A model generated the notes under the pieces. The model made no database searches, was not told the origin of the DNA, and saw only the letters and a list, made by a program, of their open reading frames with translations. Shown here one piece after another: positions 5,073 through 34,526 of a stretch of 34,526 nucleotides of DNA. How positions within the stretch are numbered: position 1 is the stretch's first letter; each line of letters opens with the position of its first letter. The DNA lies in contig JAUSPC010000082.1 of NCBI GenBank assembly GCA_030655835.1, positions 1 through 34,526 of the forward strand, given 5' to 3'. Both the position numbers and the translations under genes were made by a program. The stretch is from Pelolinea sp. GTDB lineage: Bacteria; Chloroflexota; Anaerolineae; Anaerolineales; Anaerolineaceae.

Positions 5073-5501
5073 ATGGCAAAGATAATAAAACTAAACCACA
5101 TTGCGGTTGCGGTAACGGATATCGCAGAAGCGCTTGAATTCTGGGAAAATGCGCTGGGGATCAAACTGGATCATGTGGAAGATGTCCCCTCCCAAAAAGC
5201 GAAAGTCGCCTTCCTGCCGATTGGGGAGAGTGAGATCGAACTTGTCCAGCCCACTTCACAGGATACGGGCACCGCGAGATTCCTCGAAACGCGCGGTCCC
5301 GGCATGCACCATCTCTGTTTCGAAGTGGATGATATCGATGGGATGCTCGCGGACTTGAAAACCAAAGGAATTCGCTTAATAAATGAAGAACCTCTGGAAT
5401 TGGATGGCCGCAAATTGGCATTCATCCACCCCAAATGCGCGAATGGTGTCCTGATTGAATTGTATGAGATTACCAATAAAAAAATTCCTACTGACTCTTA
5501 A
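5073..5501 (+). CDS. mce: Methylmalonyl-CoA epimerase (VOC/glyoxalase superfamily)
   Basis: KLNHIAVAVTDIAEALEFWENALGIKLDHVEDVPSQKAKVAFLPIGESEIELVQPT...GPGMHHLCFEVDDIDGMLADLK; directly downstream of the mutase subunit. Confidence 0.95.
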   Translation: MAKIIKLNHIAVAVTDIAEALEFWENALGIKLDHVEDVPSQKAKVAFLPIGESEIELVQPTSQDTGTARFLETRGPGMHHLCFEVDDIDGMLADLKTKGIRLINEEPLELDGRKLAFIHPKCANGVLIELYEITNKKIPTDS

Positions 5502-5518
5502 TCAGAAAGTTGTGTTTT

Positions 5519-5760
5519 TTATCCCTCAGGCAACTTATATCCCTCTTTAAATATCTTCAAACATGTATCCACCACATCAGGGTCAAGCAATGTTTCTCTA
5601 TCTAGCCTGATTTGCTCTAATGCTTTTTCAACGCCCAAAGCCGGGCGATATGGGCAGTGGGAGGATATGGCTTCGACTACATCCACTACAGCCAAAATCC
5701 TGGCTTCGAGCAGTATTTCCTCACCTTTAAGACCATACGGGAAACCGGAGCGGGAAATTT
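5519..5760 (-). pseudogene. C-terminal fragment of an HD-GYP domain protein
   Basis: Minus-strand translation RSGFPYGLKGEEILLEARILAVVDVVEAISSHCPYRPALGVEKALEQIRLDRETLLDPDVVDTCLKIFKEGYKLPEG* matches the HD-GYP C-terminal pattern (GSGYPxGLxGEEIxxxARILAVADVxEAxxxxRPYRPA); no intact 5' part. Not in the supplied ORF track; 5' boundary approximate. Confidence 0.8.
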
Positions 5761-10250: not shown

Positions 10251-10299
10251 CTTCCGGCAAAACACCGATAAATGCTCGATAAGTAATGTGTCAAGTTGC
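10251..10299 (+). repeat. Direct repeat A, copy 1
   Basis: Contains 24-bp TCGATAAGTAATGTGTCAAGTTGC (10276-10299), identical to 29306-29329; the aligned 49 bp match at about 41 positions. Confidence 0.8.
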
Positions 10300-10482
10300 C
10301 CTTCCTTCTTATGCAAATGGTGCAACCGTGATGCGACCTGAGTAGAAACTATAGAAACCACCTAAAGGTGGCGCCCAAAGGGTGCAGGCAGGCAATCAAC
10401 ACAATAGAGAGTTTTACCCCTGCTTTTGTCACTCTGTAGACACAATAGACGCTATATACAGGATAGAGTGAATCACGGATAA

Positions 10483-10550
10483 CTCTTAATCAGCAGATTT
10501 CATCAAGTGGAATTCCTGTGATCGTAAAGTTCGATTTCCTGGGGCATCAT
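10483..10550 (+). repeat. Direct repeat B, copy 1 (tRNA 3'-half-like)
   Basis: 68-bp match (about 60/68) to 18871-18938; contains CTCTTAATCAG (Lys CTT anticodon-loop-like) and TTCGATT (T-loop-like). Confidence 0.8.
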
Positions 10551-10664: not shown

Positions 10665-10784
10665 GGAGGGTGTTGAAAAAGTCGCATTAATGAGCAAACG
10701 CAACATATTTCTAGGTAAAAACCACTATATACGGCAGCAAAATGAGGTTTTTCTCTTCATGAAACTTGTTTTTCAACACCCTCC
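10665..10784. mobile_element. MITE-like element, 120 bp, with 16-bp perfect terminal inverted repeats
   Basis: GGAGGGTGTTGAAAAA (10665-10680) and TTTTTCAACACCCTCC (10769-10784); interior non-coding. Confidence 0.8.
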
Positions 10785-18870: not shown

Positions 18871-18938
18871 CTCTTAATCAGTAGATTTCCACAAGTGGGC
18901 TTCCTGTGATCGTAAAGTTCGATTCCCTGGTGCGTCAT
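18871..18938 (+). repeat. Direct repeat B, copy 2 (tRNA 3'-half-like)
   Basis: CTCTTAATCAGTAGATTTCCACAAGTGGGCTTCCTGTGATCGTAAAGTTCGATTCCCTGGTGCGTCAT, about 60/68 identical to 10483-10550. Confidence 0.8.
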
Positions 18939-28513: not shown

Positions 28514-28991
28514 CGAATCCATGATACCCGGCATTATACTAACACACCACTGATCAATCACCACAAACCTACTCAACTACACCATTTCAAATTAAACACG
28601 ACCACTGCCTCGAGCATCCTTTGCAGGTCAACCAGGTCCAATGAATAACCCAGCTCATCGACTACCACCATCCATTTATGTGATTTCACCAGCACAGTCT
28701 ACAGAACATCGACAACTGATATGTCAGGCGGGGCGGCAAGCGCTCTGGGAGATATAAACTCAGAGGCGCCGTTCCTTTTCCGTGAGGTGGATTGCAGATA
28801 ATACGCAGTGCCTCCAGCATCCCACGCCGTTTGGTCGGCTGAATCCGAGCAATCGCATCTGAATCGCTAAATAGACCAATGGCATTTTTCAGGTATCAGT
28901 AATCTGTGGTTTTCTGGCATTTCTACCTCCTTTTCCTATCGTTATAAATTGGCAAACGTATTAGATTCCATGAAAATTATCACCTGTTTGG

Positions 28992-29062
28992 GGTTTTGTG
29001 GCTCAGTGGTAGGCTTAGGGAATCCATAAGCCCTTTGTCATAGATTCAAATCATCCCATCGC
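28992..29062 (+). pseudogene. Decayed tRNA-Met(CAT)-like gene
   Basis: GGTTTTGTGGCTCAGTGGTAGGCTTAGGGAATCCATAAGCCCTTTGTCATAGATTCAAATCATCCCATCGCC: D-arm GTGGCTCAGTGGTAG, anticodon-loop CATAAG, T-loop TTCAAAT and 3' CATCGCC present, but acceptor and T stems are mispaired. Confidence 0.65.
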
Positions 29063-29280
29063 CTTTTTTGTTGCATGCCAGGGGAGGAAAAAAAGGACAG
29101 TATCTGACTTTTGTCCTTTCTTCAAATATCAGTCAAACCCCCAAATTTAATACCACTCATCAATAGATTTAAATACACGAAAATTTATGTTGCCTTTCCT
29201 GTTTTCATCCGCAACCCCTGCGAAAAAAAATTTTTATCTTGGACTAAAGAAAAAATATGGGTGTATCTCAGCTCGTTAAA

Positions 29281-29329
29281 CTCTCGGTAAAACGCCAATT
29301 ATTGATCGATAAGTAATGTGTCAAGTTGC
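29281..29329 (+). repeat. Direct repeat A, copy 2
   Basis: 24-bp identity TCGATAAGTAATGTGTCAAGTTGC (29306-29329) with 10276-10299, extending to about 49 bp with mismatches. Confidence 0.8.
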
Positions 29330-29438
29330 AATCCGAATGAAATGGGCAGTGATAGCTCAGATCATACAATCTGTAAGCATTCATCAATTTAGAACCAAGA
29401 TATCATGCCAAAGTAGTCATGATCCGGTGTGGTCACTA

Positions 29439-29453
29439 TTAGGTATTACCTAA
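29439..29453 (+). promoter_or_regulatory. Palindrome TTAGGTATTACCTAA upstream of BMP-2 (operator candidate or 5' hairpin)
   Basis: Perfect 7+1+7 palindrome; AGGTA/TACCT half-sites resemble the feo upstream box. Confidence 0.5.
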
Positions 29454-29455
29454 AG

Positions 29456-29467
29456 AAAAGGAGGTAA
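29456..29467 (+). promoter_or_regulatory. Orphan extended Shine-Dalgarno in BMP-2 leader
   Basis: AAAAGGAGGTAA, 78 nt upstream of ATG 29543, which has its own proximal AGGAG. Confidence 0.5.
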
Positions 29468-29542
29468 GGATAATAAGATAAACACAACATCACAACTCTT
29501 TCAAAAAAAGTATTACAGTCGATTAAACAAATAGGAGAAAAA

Positions 29543-30598
29543 ATGAATAAGTTTTTGAAGTATTTATCTTTAGCCCTGGTGTTGGTCTTTTTGATCACCG
29601 CTTGCGGTGCACCGGCACCAGAAGCTCCCGCCGTTGTTGAGGAACTGCCTGAAATCGAAGAGGTTGAGGAAGTTGAAGAATTGGTTGCTGTAGAACCGCT
29701 TACCGTAGCAGTTGTTTCGCCCAGTGCCATCAATGACTTTGCCTTCACTCAGAGCATTTATGACGGCATGGTCGCCCTCCAGGAATCAATGGGCGGACCT
29801 GATTCTTTAGATTTCGACTACTCAGAAAATATGTTTGTGGTTGATGATGCTGCCGCAGCCATTCGAGACTATGCTTCGCAGGGGTATGGCATGGTGATCG
29901 CTCACGGTTCCCAGTGTGGGTCCTCACTGCAGGAAATCGCGCCGGACTTCCCTGAGACCAGCTTTGCCTGGGGTACAACCGTCGACACCTTCGGTATCTC
30001 CAACATTTTCGCCTATGAAGCAGCTTCCCAACAGGGTGGCTATGTCAATGGCGTCATGGCGGCCCTGCTGACCAAGAGCAAGGTGATCGGTGTGGTTGGC
30101 CCAATTGAAACCGGTGATGCCAAACTGTACGTGGATGGTTTTGTGGCCGGTGTAAAGGCAACCGATCCGGATATTGAAGTGAGAGTAACTTATATCGGCT
30201 CTTTCTCTGATGTCGCTCTGGCATCTGAAGCCGCGACGACTCATATTGCCGCAGGCGCCGATGTATTGACTGGCACGGCACAGATGGTCGTCGGAGCCAT
30301 AGGCAAAGCTGAGGAAGCCGGTGCGTTATGGTTCGGCACCCAGTCTGACCAGTCATCTTTTGCACCGAATGCTGTAGTGGCAAGCCAGGTCTATCACTGG
30401 GAAGTGATCCTCAAGGAAATCGTTGCACTGAGGGCAGATGGGATTCTTGGCGGTCAATCGTTTATTGCCAGCCTGGAAAATGGTGGTCAGGTGATGGCAT
30501 TCAATTCAGATTTTGACCTGCCCGTAGACGTTAGGGCAGCTGCTGATGCGGCCATCCAGGGGATCATTGACGGCACCATCACGATCGAACTACCCTAA
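29543..30598 (+). CDS. BMP family ABC transporter substrate-binding lipoprotein, 2
   Basis: Lipobox LITAC; VVSPSAINDFAFTQSIYDGM.., FPETSFAWGTTVDTFGISNIFAYEAASQQGGYVNGVMAALLTKSKVIGVVGPIETGD. Confidence 0.92.
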   Translation: MNKFLKYLSLALVLVFLITACGAPAPEAPAVVEELPEIEEVEEVEELVAVEPLTVAVVSPSAINDFAFTQSIYDGMVALQESMGGPDSLDFDYSENMFVVDDAAAAIRDYASQGYGMVIAHGSQCGSSLQEIAPDFPETSFAWGTTVDTFGISNIFAYEAASQQGGYVNGVMAALLTKSKVIGVVGPIETGDAKLYVDGFVAGVKATDPDIEVRVTYIGSFSDVALASEAATTHIAAGADVLTGTAQMVVGAIGKAEEAGALWFGTQSDQSSFAPNAVVASQVYHWEVILKEIVALRADGILGGQSFIASLENGGQVMAFNSDFDLPVDVRAAADAAIQGIIDGTITIELP

Positions 30599-30621
30599 GA
30601 GGTGACAAAGTAATTTAATTC

Positions 30622-30653
30622 GATTTCGGAAGTCCATCAGGACTTCCGAAATC
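30622..30653 (+). terminator. Hairpin between BMP-2 and its ATPase (attenuator / 3'-end stabiliser)
   Basis: GATTTCGGAAGTCC-ATCA-GGACTTCCGAAATC, 14-bp perfect stem with 4-nt loop. Confidence 0.75.
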
Positions 30654-30680
30654 TTAAAACACAGTATCTAGGTTGGCACA

Positions 30681-32243
30681 ATGATTTATTTAAATAAACT
30701 TCCTTCCGGTCAAACACGAATTGATTTAATGGAAATGCGCGGAATCACCAAACGTTTCCCCGGTGTTCTCGCTAACGACAATGTGGACTTTGATGTCAGG
30801 TCGTCCGAAGTTCACGCCTTGCTCGGTGAAAACGGTGCCGGGAAGAGCACATTGATGAAAATTCTCTATGGTATGTATCAACAAAATGAAGGAAATATCT
30901 TTATCAATGGAAAGCGTGTCGATATTTCTTCACCAACGGATGCGATCAAACTTGGCATTGGCATGATCCACCAACACTTCATGCTGGTGCCCACTTTGAC
31001 TGTGGCAGAAAACGTGGCATTGGGGTTACCCTCGTCACGCGGCCCCCTGACCGATCTCGACCGCGTGTCCAAACGGATTCTGGATTTAGCTGATACATAC
31101 GGATTGCGGATCGAACCGGATGCCTATATTTGGCAGCTCTCCGTAGGTCAGCAGCAACGAGTAGAGATCATCAAAGCACTCTATCGCGGTGCTGCCTTGT
31201 TGATCCTTGATGAACCCACTGCCGTCCTCACTCCCCAGGAGGTGGACGAGCTGTTTGCGATCATGCACCAGGTGGTAGAAGATGGTTATGCACTCATTTT
31301 TATTTCTCATAAATTACATGAAGTGGTTGAAATCAGCAACCGTGTGACAGTCCTGCGCAATGGTCAAAAGATCGGGACGCGGCCGACTTCCAAGATAACA
31401 AAAAAAACCCTCGCCAAGTGGATGGTGGGGCGTGATATTGAATTCATTACCAGCACCGATCATGTGGTCATGGGTGAAATCCGTTTGAAACTTGAAAATG
31501 TTTCCTGTGAAAGTGACCGCGGTACACAGGGTTTACGCGATGTCAGTCTTGAAGTTCATTCCGGTGAGACCCTGGGAATTGCTGGTGTTTCCGGTAATGG
31601 TCAGCGGGAATTAGCAGAGGTGATGGCAGGCTTGAGAAGATCGACCGCTGGGTGGGTTTATTTAGAAGGTGAGGATGTGACTGGTTTTGCGGCAGGCGAA
31701 CTGATCGAGCGGATGTTATCCTATATCCCTGAGGAAAGAATGCGCGATGGTATGATCAAGAATTTTACCATCGCGGAAAACATGATCCTGCGTGAACACC
31801 ATAAATCGCACTTCTCCCAACATGGTTTCTTAAAATTAAAGGATATCGCCGTGCATACGGATAAATTGATTGATCGATTTCAAGTCAAAACACCTTCACA
31901 AAAAACACTGGCAAAAAGTCTATCTGGAGGCAATATTCAAAAAATCGTATTGGCGCGGGAGATTTCCAGAAACCCCCGCACCATCGTCGCAGCACAGCCA
32001 ACCCGAGGACTCGACATCGGTGCAACGGAATATGTTCGCGAACAATTGATAATACAGCGAAATAACGGTGCAGCTGTTTTACTGATCTCTGAAGACCTGG
32101 ATGAAATCCTGGCGCTCTCAGATCGCATAGCCGTGATCTATGAAGGCAAGATCATGGATATTCTTTCCCGGGAAGAAGCAACAAAGCAAAAACTTGGTTT
32201 GTTGATGGCTGGCGTGATTCCTGAAGAAACAGCCGCCGATTAA
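30681..32243 (+). CDS. ABC transporter ATPase, duplicated NBD (nucleoside/sugar type), 2
   Basis: GENGAGKSTLMKILYGMYQQNEGNIFINGKRVDI; LSVGQQQRVEIIKALYRGAALLILDEPTAVLTPQE; LSGGNIQKIVLAREISRNPRTIVAAQPTRGLDIGATEYV. Confidence 0.95.
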   Translation: MIYLNKLPSGQTRIDLMEMRGITKRFPGVLANDNVDFDVRSSEVHALLGENGAGKSTLMKILYGMYQQNEGNIFINGKRVDISSPTDAIKLGIGMIHQHFMLVPTLTVAENVALGLPSSRGPLTDLDRVSKRILDLADTYGLRIEPDAYIWQLSVGQQQRVEIIKALYRGAALLILDEPTAVLTPQEVDELFAIMHQVVEDGYALIFISHKLHEVVEISNRVTVLRNGQKIGTRPTSKITKKTLAKWMVGRDIEFITSTDHVVMGEIRLKLENVSCESDRGTQGLRDVSLEVHSGETLGIAGVSGNGQRELAEVMAGLRRSTAGWVYLEGEDVTGFAAGELIERMLSYIPEERMRDGMIKNFTIAENMILREHHKSHFSQHGFLKLKDIAVHTDKLIDRFQVKTPSQKTLAKSLSGGNIQKIVLAREISRNPRTIVAAQPTRGLDIGATEYVREQLIIQRNNGAAVLLISEDLDEILALSDRIAVIYEGKIMDILSREEATKQKLGLLMAGVIPEETAAD

Positions 32244-32248
32244 ATTTT

Positions 32249-32345
32249 TGGAAAAATGCGCTTGGCATCAAACTGGATCATGTGGAAGATGTCCCCTCCC
32301 AAAAAGCGAAAGTCACCTTCCTGCCGATTGGAGAGAGTGAATCGA
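32249..32345 (+). pseudogene. Fragment of a methylmalonyl-CoA epimerase gene
   Basis: Near-identical (about 94%) to 5142-5239; in the mce frame reads WKNALGIKLDHVEDVPSQKAKVTFLPIGES before diverging. Begins 6 bp after the ATPase-2 stop. Confidence 0.92.
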
Positions 32346-32599
32346 GGGTTACTCTTTTTCAGTCGATTGACTTTTGAAAAATTTCTTCAAACTCATCATA
32401 AACGACTTCAAAAATACTCCTTTTATGCGTTTGATCAAAACCACCTTCTCAATGATCTGATGCGTCCTGGGTCGTGTATCAAACTTTCTACACCATCAAA
32501 GAGCTGCACTCAGGTGGGTAACTTATTACTCCGAAAAGAATTACATTTATAACCTGGAATTGAAATAAAATTGGGTATAAGGTTATCTTCATAAAGAAA

Positions 32600-32628
32600 A
32601 TGGAAGGTGCAGTGTATGCACCTTCCAT
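32600..32628 (-). terminator. Rho-independent terminator for the minus-strand permease
   Basis: ATGGAAGGTGCA-gtgta-TGCACCTTCCAT, 12-bp stem, followed on the minus strand by TTTTCTTTA. Confidence 0.75.
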
Positions 32629-32651
32629 AGTTAGTTCGTTGTGCTTTTAGT

Positions 32652-34013
32652 TCAATCTTCCAAATCAACCACTTTAAGTTCCGCACCTTCTGGTGTCTTG
32701 AAGACCATGAAGACTAAGTTTAATACGATTCCAGCAACTGCGGCAAAGGCGATCGCTGGTAAACCATCAGGGAAAACTCCTGGAATCGGGAGTGGTATAT
32801 TACCGCCGAGACCAATATGCCCGCCGATGCCAAGCACGAGGATCGTAGCGCCGATTGCCAGCTGGCGGGGATCATATAGGTTGACTTTTTCAGCTTGTAT
32901 GAGGGCAACACCCTGCATGCCAATTAGGCCAAAGAAGTAGATTGCTAGACCGCCTGAAACTGCAATGGGAATTACGCCAACGGCTGCAGAAAGTTTTCCA
33001 ATGAAGCCAAGCATTATAGCCATAATACCGGCTGTTATTAGAGTCGGACCTGAGTAGTTGCGGGTAATCACCATCAGAGAATTGTTCTCACCATAGTTAG
33101 TTCCTGCAACACCACCGAACATACCATTGATCATATCTCCGAGGCCATCCAGAATCAGGTTCAGTCCGATCAATTCGCGCAAGTTATATTTCTTTTTTCC
33201 CATATTTGTGGCCAGGTTATCAACATACAAACTGATCTGATATAGGTGCGCTGTTGATTCAGGAATGGTAGCGATAGCGATGATCGCAATTGCGGCAACG
33301 GATTCCCATGCTTTTGGTGAAGTAAATGCCGGGAAAGTTATTTTCGGAAGCGCAAACCATGCGGCAGCGCCCACAGGGCTAAGATCAACCAGCCCAAACA
33401 ATGCACTGGCAAGGATCCCTACGAGTGCACCCAGCAGCACAGGGATTAGCCCGAGAAATCCTTTTCCCTGCAAATACACAGAGAAGATTATGGTTGCTAG
33501 TAATGTGATAAATGCAACCAGCCAGTTTGCTGCAGCCATATTCAAAGCAGCTGCTGATAGAGCAATGCCAATAACCGCAGCTACGGAACCTGTAATAATG
33601 GGCGGCAAGAATTTGTCAATAAATTTACGGCCCCCTGCACGACGTACAATGAGACCTACCAGGATGTTGACCACACCCGTGGCAACGATTCCGACTTGCG
33701 CAAGTGCGACCTTATCCTGTGCATACACGCCGAATTCAGCATTGGTAATTGCCAATGTGGCAGCAATGTAGCTGAAACTTGAGCCATAATACAAAGGAAT
33801 AAATTTGCCGGCAATCTGCTTGGAAAGGATAAGCGCAGTGATCGTTGCAAGACCGGAAACTGCCAATACGGTGCCAACGTCAAAGCCTACTAATAACGCG
33901 ACCAAGATCGTGGCCGGGAACATTGCCAGGACATGCTGGAAGCCAAGTACCAACATTCGCCCTAGTGGAGGTGTATCATTTGGTAGATACCCTACTATTT
34001 TCTTTTGTGCCAT
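32652..34013 (-). CDS. NCS2 family nucleobase (uracil/xanthine) permease
   Basis: GRMLVLGFQHVLAMFPATILVALLVGFDVGTVLAVSGLATI; VGIVATGVVNILVGLIVRRAG; PESTAHLYQISLYV; NGMFGGVAGTNYGENNSLMVITRNYSGP. Confidence 0.93.
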   Translation of the reverse strand: MAQKKIVGYLPNDTPPLGRMLVLGFQHVLAMFPATILVALLVGFDVGTVLAVSGLATITALILSKQIAGKFIPLYYGSSFSYIAATLAITNAEFGVYAQDKVALAQVGIVATGVVNILVGLIVRRAGGRKFIDKFLPPIITGSVAAVIGIALSAAALNMAAANWLVAFITLLATIIFSVYLQGKGFLGLIPVLLGALVGILASALFGLVDLSPVGAAAWFALPKITFPAFTSPKAWESVAAIAIIAIATIPESTAHLYQISLYVDNLATNMGKKKYNLRELIGLNLILDGLGDMINGMFGGVAGTNYGENNSLMVITRNYSGPTLITAGIMAIMLGFIGKLSAAVGVIPIAVSGGLAIYFFGLIGMQGVALIQAEKVNLYDPRQLAIGATILVLGIGGHIGLGGNIPLPIPGVFPDGLPAIAFAAVAGIVLNLVFMVFKTPEGAELKVVDLED

Positions 34014-34129: not shown

Positions 34130-34350
34130 TGTAGTTGAATACACATTCTATTTACCCCCGTTAATAACATTTCATTGAAATGTTCTAATTTTGAAATCTC
34201 AGATGACCATATTATAAGCATATTCTATTTTTTAGAATCCCTTAATGCTGTTCATCGGGCTGCGGTTAAATAATTCGATGAAATTTAGAAAATACTTTAG
34301 ATGATTCTAAACTTGTATGTAGTATACATCTTACCTCTTGGATTCAAGTC

Positions 34351-34524
34351 TCAAGTGCAACCGTGATTATTTAAGAATACCATAGGTGATGTGAAAGACA
34401 GACACTTCTTGGGTCTTGTATTCAATCGATTTTCAGCAAATTGAATGTCCGCATTCGTTAATTTACTAAAATCAGTGTTTTTGGGAATGTATTGGCGAAT
34501 CAGCCCATTCGTATTTTCATTGGT
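34351..34524 (-). mobile_element. IS30-family transposase, C-terminal end (extends past the window edge)
   Basis: Minus-strand frame TNENTNGLIRQYIPKNTDFSKLTNADIQFAENRLNTRPKKCLSFTSPMVFLNNHGCT*; matches the IS30 C-terminal pattern NENxNGLIRQYxPKxTDFxxxxxxxxxxxxxxLNxRPRKxLxxxTP. Not in the supplied ORF track. Confidence 0.88.
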
Positions 34525-34526
34525 CC

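Follow-up and report, generated by a model that had tools for sequence, protein, structure and literature searches.

What does a short piece of the methylmalonyl-CoA epimerase gene (mce) record when it lies in intergenic DNA ~27 kb from the intact gene? The question is raised by a Pelolinea contig (JAUSPC010000082.1), the whole 34,526 nucleotides (nt) of which are hereafter referred to as the window. A sequence-only reading of the window had proposed that the piece derives from a diverged, once-functional mce copy, that it marks recombination with imported or paralogous DNA, and that it and intact mce bracket an accessory island inserted next to mce. Here we report that the piece is most probably an inert scrap of mce left by illegitimate recombination of a microhomology type, a mechanism and an order of events that we infer from the joints described below.

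The source gene occupies positions 5073–5501 on the plus strand, downstream of the methylmalonyl-CoA mutase gene, and encodes a 142-amino-acid protein that matches the NCBIfam equivalog model TIGR03081 with 137.5 bits (cut-off, 114.95); its orthologs adjoin the mutase gene in relatives. A blastn comparison aligned positions 32246–32345 with mce positions 5139–5239, with 94 of 101 columns identical (~93%), one gap and an E-value of ~3e-38 to 5e-36 within the window. The resemblance of ~94% that had been noted between 32249–32345 and 5142–5239 is therefore real, but it begins at 32246. On codon alignment, the scrap (32246–32333, plus strand, as mce) corresponds to codons 23–51 of the 142, with 81 of 87 bases identical and an unbroken identical run of ~48 bases; the blastn match covers codons 23–56 of mce on the plus strand, the last five bases being a resemblance only. 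The part of mce present in the scrap thus comprises ~88–95 bases, or ~20% of the gene, and the mce start is absent. The frame continues into repeat sequence, so that the parent protein cannot be made.

A search of the entire genome, a 2.26-Mb draft in 223 contigs that is 90.6% complete, found this sequence in two places only, the scrap and mce (E = 1.4e-36), with no third; the next mce-like proteins encoded in the genome are distant glyoxalase-fold relatives with 26–28% identity. A blastn search of the plasmid collection gave no match. With an E-value of ~1e-36 and the genome's own mce as nearest sequence, the scrap descends from a recognizable gene beyond chance. Pseudogenes and gene remnants occur in the intergenic DNA of prokaryotes (Liu et al. 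2004, PMC522871), and the scrap resembles those remnants in being a truncated, apparently unconstrained gene piece between genes. Unlike them, it has an intact parent gene in its own genome, from which only ~90 internal bases were copied.

The two edges of the scrap are of different kinds. The 5′ edge lies 2 nt past the stop codon of an ABC transporter ATPase gene, and no clear microhomology was found at this joint. The 3′ edge runs into AGAGTGA (32334–32340, plus strand), a perfect 7-bp sequence common to mce and an interspersed repeat and the probable site of a microhomology crossover, followed by a diverged 3′ end of that repeat (32341–32368, plus strand). The sequences at this joint are GGATAGAGTGAATCGAGGATAACTCTTAATCAG in the repeat end, GGAGAGAGTGAATCGAGGGTTACTCTTTTTCAG in the scrap and GGGGAGAGTGAGATCGAACTTGTCC in mce, and GAGTGAATCGAGG in the scrap is identical to the consensus for the repeat's 3′ end. 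Over the 22 bases that follow AGAGTGA, the scrap agrees with the repeat copies at 17 and with mce, aligned without gaps, at 3, whereas none of the 43 unrelated AGAGTGA sites present in a 583-kb genome sample agreed with the repeat at more than 11 of 22 positions. When the whole genome was searched with positions 32325–32650, the four best off-target matches were copies of the repeat, all at one position. Moreover, a repeat profile built without the scrap detected the joint with an E-value of 0.045 over 583 kb, and its score there was not reached by any of 2000 shuffled versions of the local sequence; this score counts the seven bases shared with mce, and the 17 of 22 matches after them are the cleaner test. 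What had been taken for a 1-nt deletion near the end of the fragment is accordingly no deletion in mce: because the bases after AGAGTGA follow the repeat and not mce, the 3′ end of the repeat starts there, from ~32334. As a caution, what looks like a frameshift with a synonymous change where a gene scrap ends can be the point at which another element begins.

The repeat is ~230 bp long, and its best full copy lies at 10255–10500 on the plus strand of the window; contigs C170, C101, C180 (three), C141, C167 and C169 carry other copies, complete or partial. The family is specific to this genome: it was absent from the three congeners examined. The pattern of its end was not found among the viral_contigs, and its copies had no match in Rfam. 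As a useful by-product, the analysis brings to light an interspersed repeat that is lineage-specific and that is involved, through its end, in a chromosomal joint. The repeat contains short hairpins (CCACCTAAAGGTGG and CGCCCAAAGGGTG), its copies on C180 lie at about 9.5, 12.3 and 15 kb, and weak pieces of it were seen in the genomes G030, G007 and G004.

Six differences separate the scrap from mce over the 87 codon-aligned nt of codons 23–51. Four are synonymous (F23, TTC to TTT; L28, CTG to CTT; G29, GGG to GGC; and G51, GGG to GGA), and two change an amino acid (E25K, GAA to AAA; and A46T, GCC to ACC). The substitutions had been called coding-like, and a synonymous majority does exist (four of six, in place of the three of five then located), but the excess is marginal: the probability of at least four synonymous changes among six under neutrality is 0.03–0.06, depending on the transition bias, and ~0.09 by the same binomial calculated by hand without the ambiguous G51. 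The difference at G51 reads two ways, as a mismatch to mce or, if the crossover lay ~3 bases earlier, as one to the repeat. Four of the six differences fall in the first 21 bases, a clustering that is not significant (P = 0.12), and the 5′ end of the scrap is possibly a mosaic.

Such a pattern could be expected if a complete and functional second mce, which arose by duplication of the whole gene or was imported as an allele of a related strain, had since been deleted except for the scrap. The synonymous majority would agree with this origin, as would the TTT, CTT and GGC states of the scrap, which also occur in orthologs, and the presence of a diverged mce tail near mce in the congener G003. 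However, the substitution count pools the branch of the scrap with that of the intact gene, and a once-functional second copy is not required to explain the synonymous excess: the branch of intact mce, which is under constraint, is expected by itself to be mostly synonymous. The nearest relative of the scrap is the genome's own mce (81 of 87 bases), whereas the best of 29 orthologs reaches 63 of 87. Site 46 is alanine in 24 of the 29 orthologs, and its change to threonine would be consistent with an unconstrained scrap. Furthermore, mce sequence does not extend beyond the scrap in either direction, its two edges are abrupt, one of them being explained by the repeat, and the mce core, searched as an exact 24-mer, was not found elsewhere in genome_contigs and viral_contigs, collections that may lack records close to the window. 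We consider a lost second mce unlikely, and the data support neither a diverged, once-functional copy nor an imported one as the source. The scrap may conceivably stem from an allele of a very close strain, but no observation requires such an import.

The recombination that had been suspected from the fragment is borne out, as a scar derived from the genome's own mce and joined to a repeat. Starting from the observed mce identity, repeat identity and shared 7-mer, we propose that a break arose between the ATPase gene and a copy of the repeat and that, as it was repaired or replicated, a short stretch was copied from mce. The joint to the repeat would have formed within the shared AGAGTGA, by short-homology illegitimate recombination or template switching, and the scrap would then have drifted as an inert genomic scar, to ~6–7% divergence from mce since copying. 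Events of this kind are known, and the scrap is an ordinary recombination scar. Small variable segments have been attributed to illegitimate recombination, with flanking repeats of 5 bp or more counted (PMC2884548); like them, the scrap is short, bordered by short homology and not a known mobile element, whereas unlike them it has a source that can be identified, a gene at a distance of 27 kb, and is joined to an interspersed repeat. In spontaneous rearrangements of Salmonella, verified junctions share about 8–12 bp or more (PMC3411829). The joint described here likewise lies within a few shared bases, but its perfect 7-bp microhomology is short compared with those junctions.

A different view of the locus takes the scrap and intact mce as the two edges of one large insertion, a 27-kb accessory region placed beside mce. 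In its favour, the region carries accessory iron-uptake genes and genes for purine metabolism and transport, and the gene order breaks directly after mce, a point on which the sequence-only reading was right: in two congeners (G001 and G002), the gene next after the mutase gene and mce is a UMF1-type MFS gene in convergent orientation, and a third (G003) has several genes between mce and the UMF1-type gene. In the present genome, this gene is found on another contig (C138) rather than beyond 32345, which speaks against an insertion. In the window, mce is followed by a relic of the 3′ part of an HD-domain (HD-GYP type) gene (5488–5740, minus strand) and then by DtxR–FeoA and FeoB genes. This relic abuts mce and overlaps its stop codon, and it is 79.8% identical over 253 bp to positions 64–316 of contig C113, in an alignment that extends into the final codons of mce; the C113 peptide scores above the cut-off of Pfam PF13487, and the window peptide below it (E = 8e-5). 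The DNA joined to mce at the synteny break, which lies at the mce stop codon, is an HD-gene relic that is also present elsewhere in the genome, and no clean island edge.

The other flank argues against an insertion as well. The right neighbour of the scrap is an NCS2/uracil-xanthine permease family gene (32652–34013, minus strand; Pfam PF00860), and the sequence-only reading had suggested comparing relatives to see whether mce sits directly beside this region. The two were never adjacent: the three congeners have no NCS2 permease, and in other genera mce and NCS2 lie on different contigs or at least 92 kb apart (92 kb in G006, about 390 kb in G013 and about 820 kb in G029), so that the flanks are unlinked in every relative examined. 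Most of the findings that the sequence-only reading had itself named as refuting it were thus obtained. In addition, the scrap consists of codons 23–51 and not of the mce 3′ end, which a target duplication would repeat, and its own 3′ end is the repeat. An insertion bracketed by mce and the scrap is therefore very unlikely, and the scrap would record a chromosome break at its present position rather than the entry of an island beside mce. Taken alone, it matters little: it is the trace of a single recombination event and serves to correct the notion that an island left a footprint here.

The left neighbour, the ABC transporter ATPase gene (30681–32243, plus strand), is complete at its natural stop codon, and its product is 77% identical to the G003 and G013 orthologs, aligned to residue 518 of 520. 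In relatives, the cluster runs permease, permease, Bmp and ATPase. Since the ATPase gene ends naturally and is the last of the cluster there, nothing has obviously been deleted at the left joint. Loss of an ABC permease at this joint was considered and rejected, because the permeases of relatives lie upstream of Bmp and the ATPase is terminal. In G003, the ATPase ortholog is followed by a xanthine-dehydrogenase-like gene, and the relatives examined, all of other species, showed no ATPase–NCS2 junction free of the scrap. The Bmp–ATPase pair of the window (29543–32243) is its second. The two permease genes found ahead of this pair in relatives are missing here, and the 1-kb gap upstream of it (28514–29542) looks like decayed DNA.

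Could the scrap act as a regulatory RNA, for example as an antisense of the mce mRNA in the event of minus-strand transcription? The ~48-base run identical to mce would suit such a role, and NCS2 is transcribed towards the scrap. However, a strong terminator-like hairpin of the NCS2 gene (32600–32628, minus strand) lies between the two and is predicted to separate the scrap from NCS2 transcription; the single promoter-like site is at chance level, a transcript of the plus strand would be sense rather than antisense, and a search of the window against Rfam gave no match. We regard this role as extremely improbable. The open frame downstream of the scrap had no Pfam match. As the scrap has no mce start, no promoter above chance level, no Rfam match, a hairpin shield and no sign of being expressed by itself, it is without detectable function.

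Another explanation, that the scrap was created by misassembly, has in its favour that the genome is a draft of 223 fragments and that both ends of the window lie in repeats. It is hardly credible, given that the scrap differs from mce at 5–6 places, that one of its flanks is repeat sequence and the other unique, and that a similar scrap is present in a single-contig congener. The repeats at the window ends (1–103 and 34339–34526) are shared with the ends of other contigs (C220, C180 and C172; C101 and C20), and the assembly thus stops in repeated elements.

The intergenic DNA of this genome is not full of gene scraps: the 583-kb sample, which makes up 26% of the genome, contained no strong intergenic match to a real gene other than the mce scrap, in a count that is restricted to pairs lying wholly within the sample and that uses a simple reading-frame caller. 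Two weaker candidates on C170 have 77–79% identity. A further candidate, on C130, was discarded because its reading frame is spurious and the sequence within it a hairpin repeat. A different mce scrap is present in G003 (L067:9360–9464), where a 91-bp piece of the 3′ tail (codons about 103–135), 81% identical to the mce of that genome, lies past a lipoprotein-like gene at ~1 kb downstream of mce. Two of four congeneric species thus carry mce scraps, each a different piece, and as G003 has one of its own, such scraps would arise repeatedly. This count, which comes from mce alone without a comparison with other genes, is suggestive of a recurrent site. That the 3′ neighbourhood of mce is a recurrent site of breakage and capture across the genus, with the copy seen here captured by the end of a lineage-specific and perhaps itself mobile repeat family, is unlikely.

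Other repeated sequences were observed in the course of this work. A split 3′ half of tRNA-Lys(CTT) occurs at several intergenic sites (window positions 10483–10550 and 18871–18938; L120 and L121), in some cases directly at the 3′ end of the ~230-bp repeat. The split half reads CTCTTAATCAGTAGATT, other DNA and GTTCGATTCCCTGGTGCGTCA, like the real gene on C94, and these sites may be integration sites that have decayed or a repeat derived from the tRNA. Both copies of the HD-gene relic (5488–5740, minus strand, and C113:64–316) are followed by a match to the tRNA-Lys anticodon arm, ACTGACTCTTAATCAG, which in the window overlaps the last codons of mce; the C terminus of the mce product is longer than in its orthologs. 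Finally, a ~119-bp MITE-like element with terminal inverted repeats (GGAGGGTGTTGAAAAAG) is present in at least four copies with 88–96% identity, at positions 10665–10783 of the window, C180:9774–9892, C63:966–1083 and C109:15638–15750.
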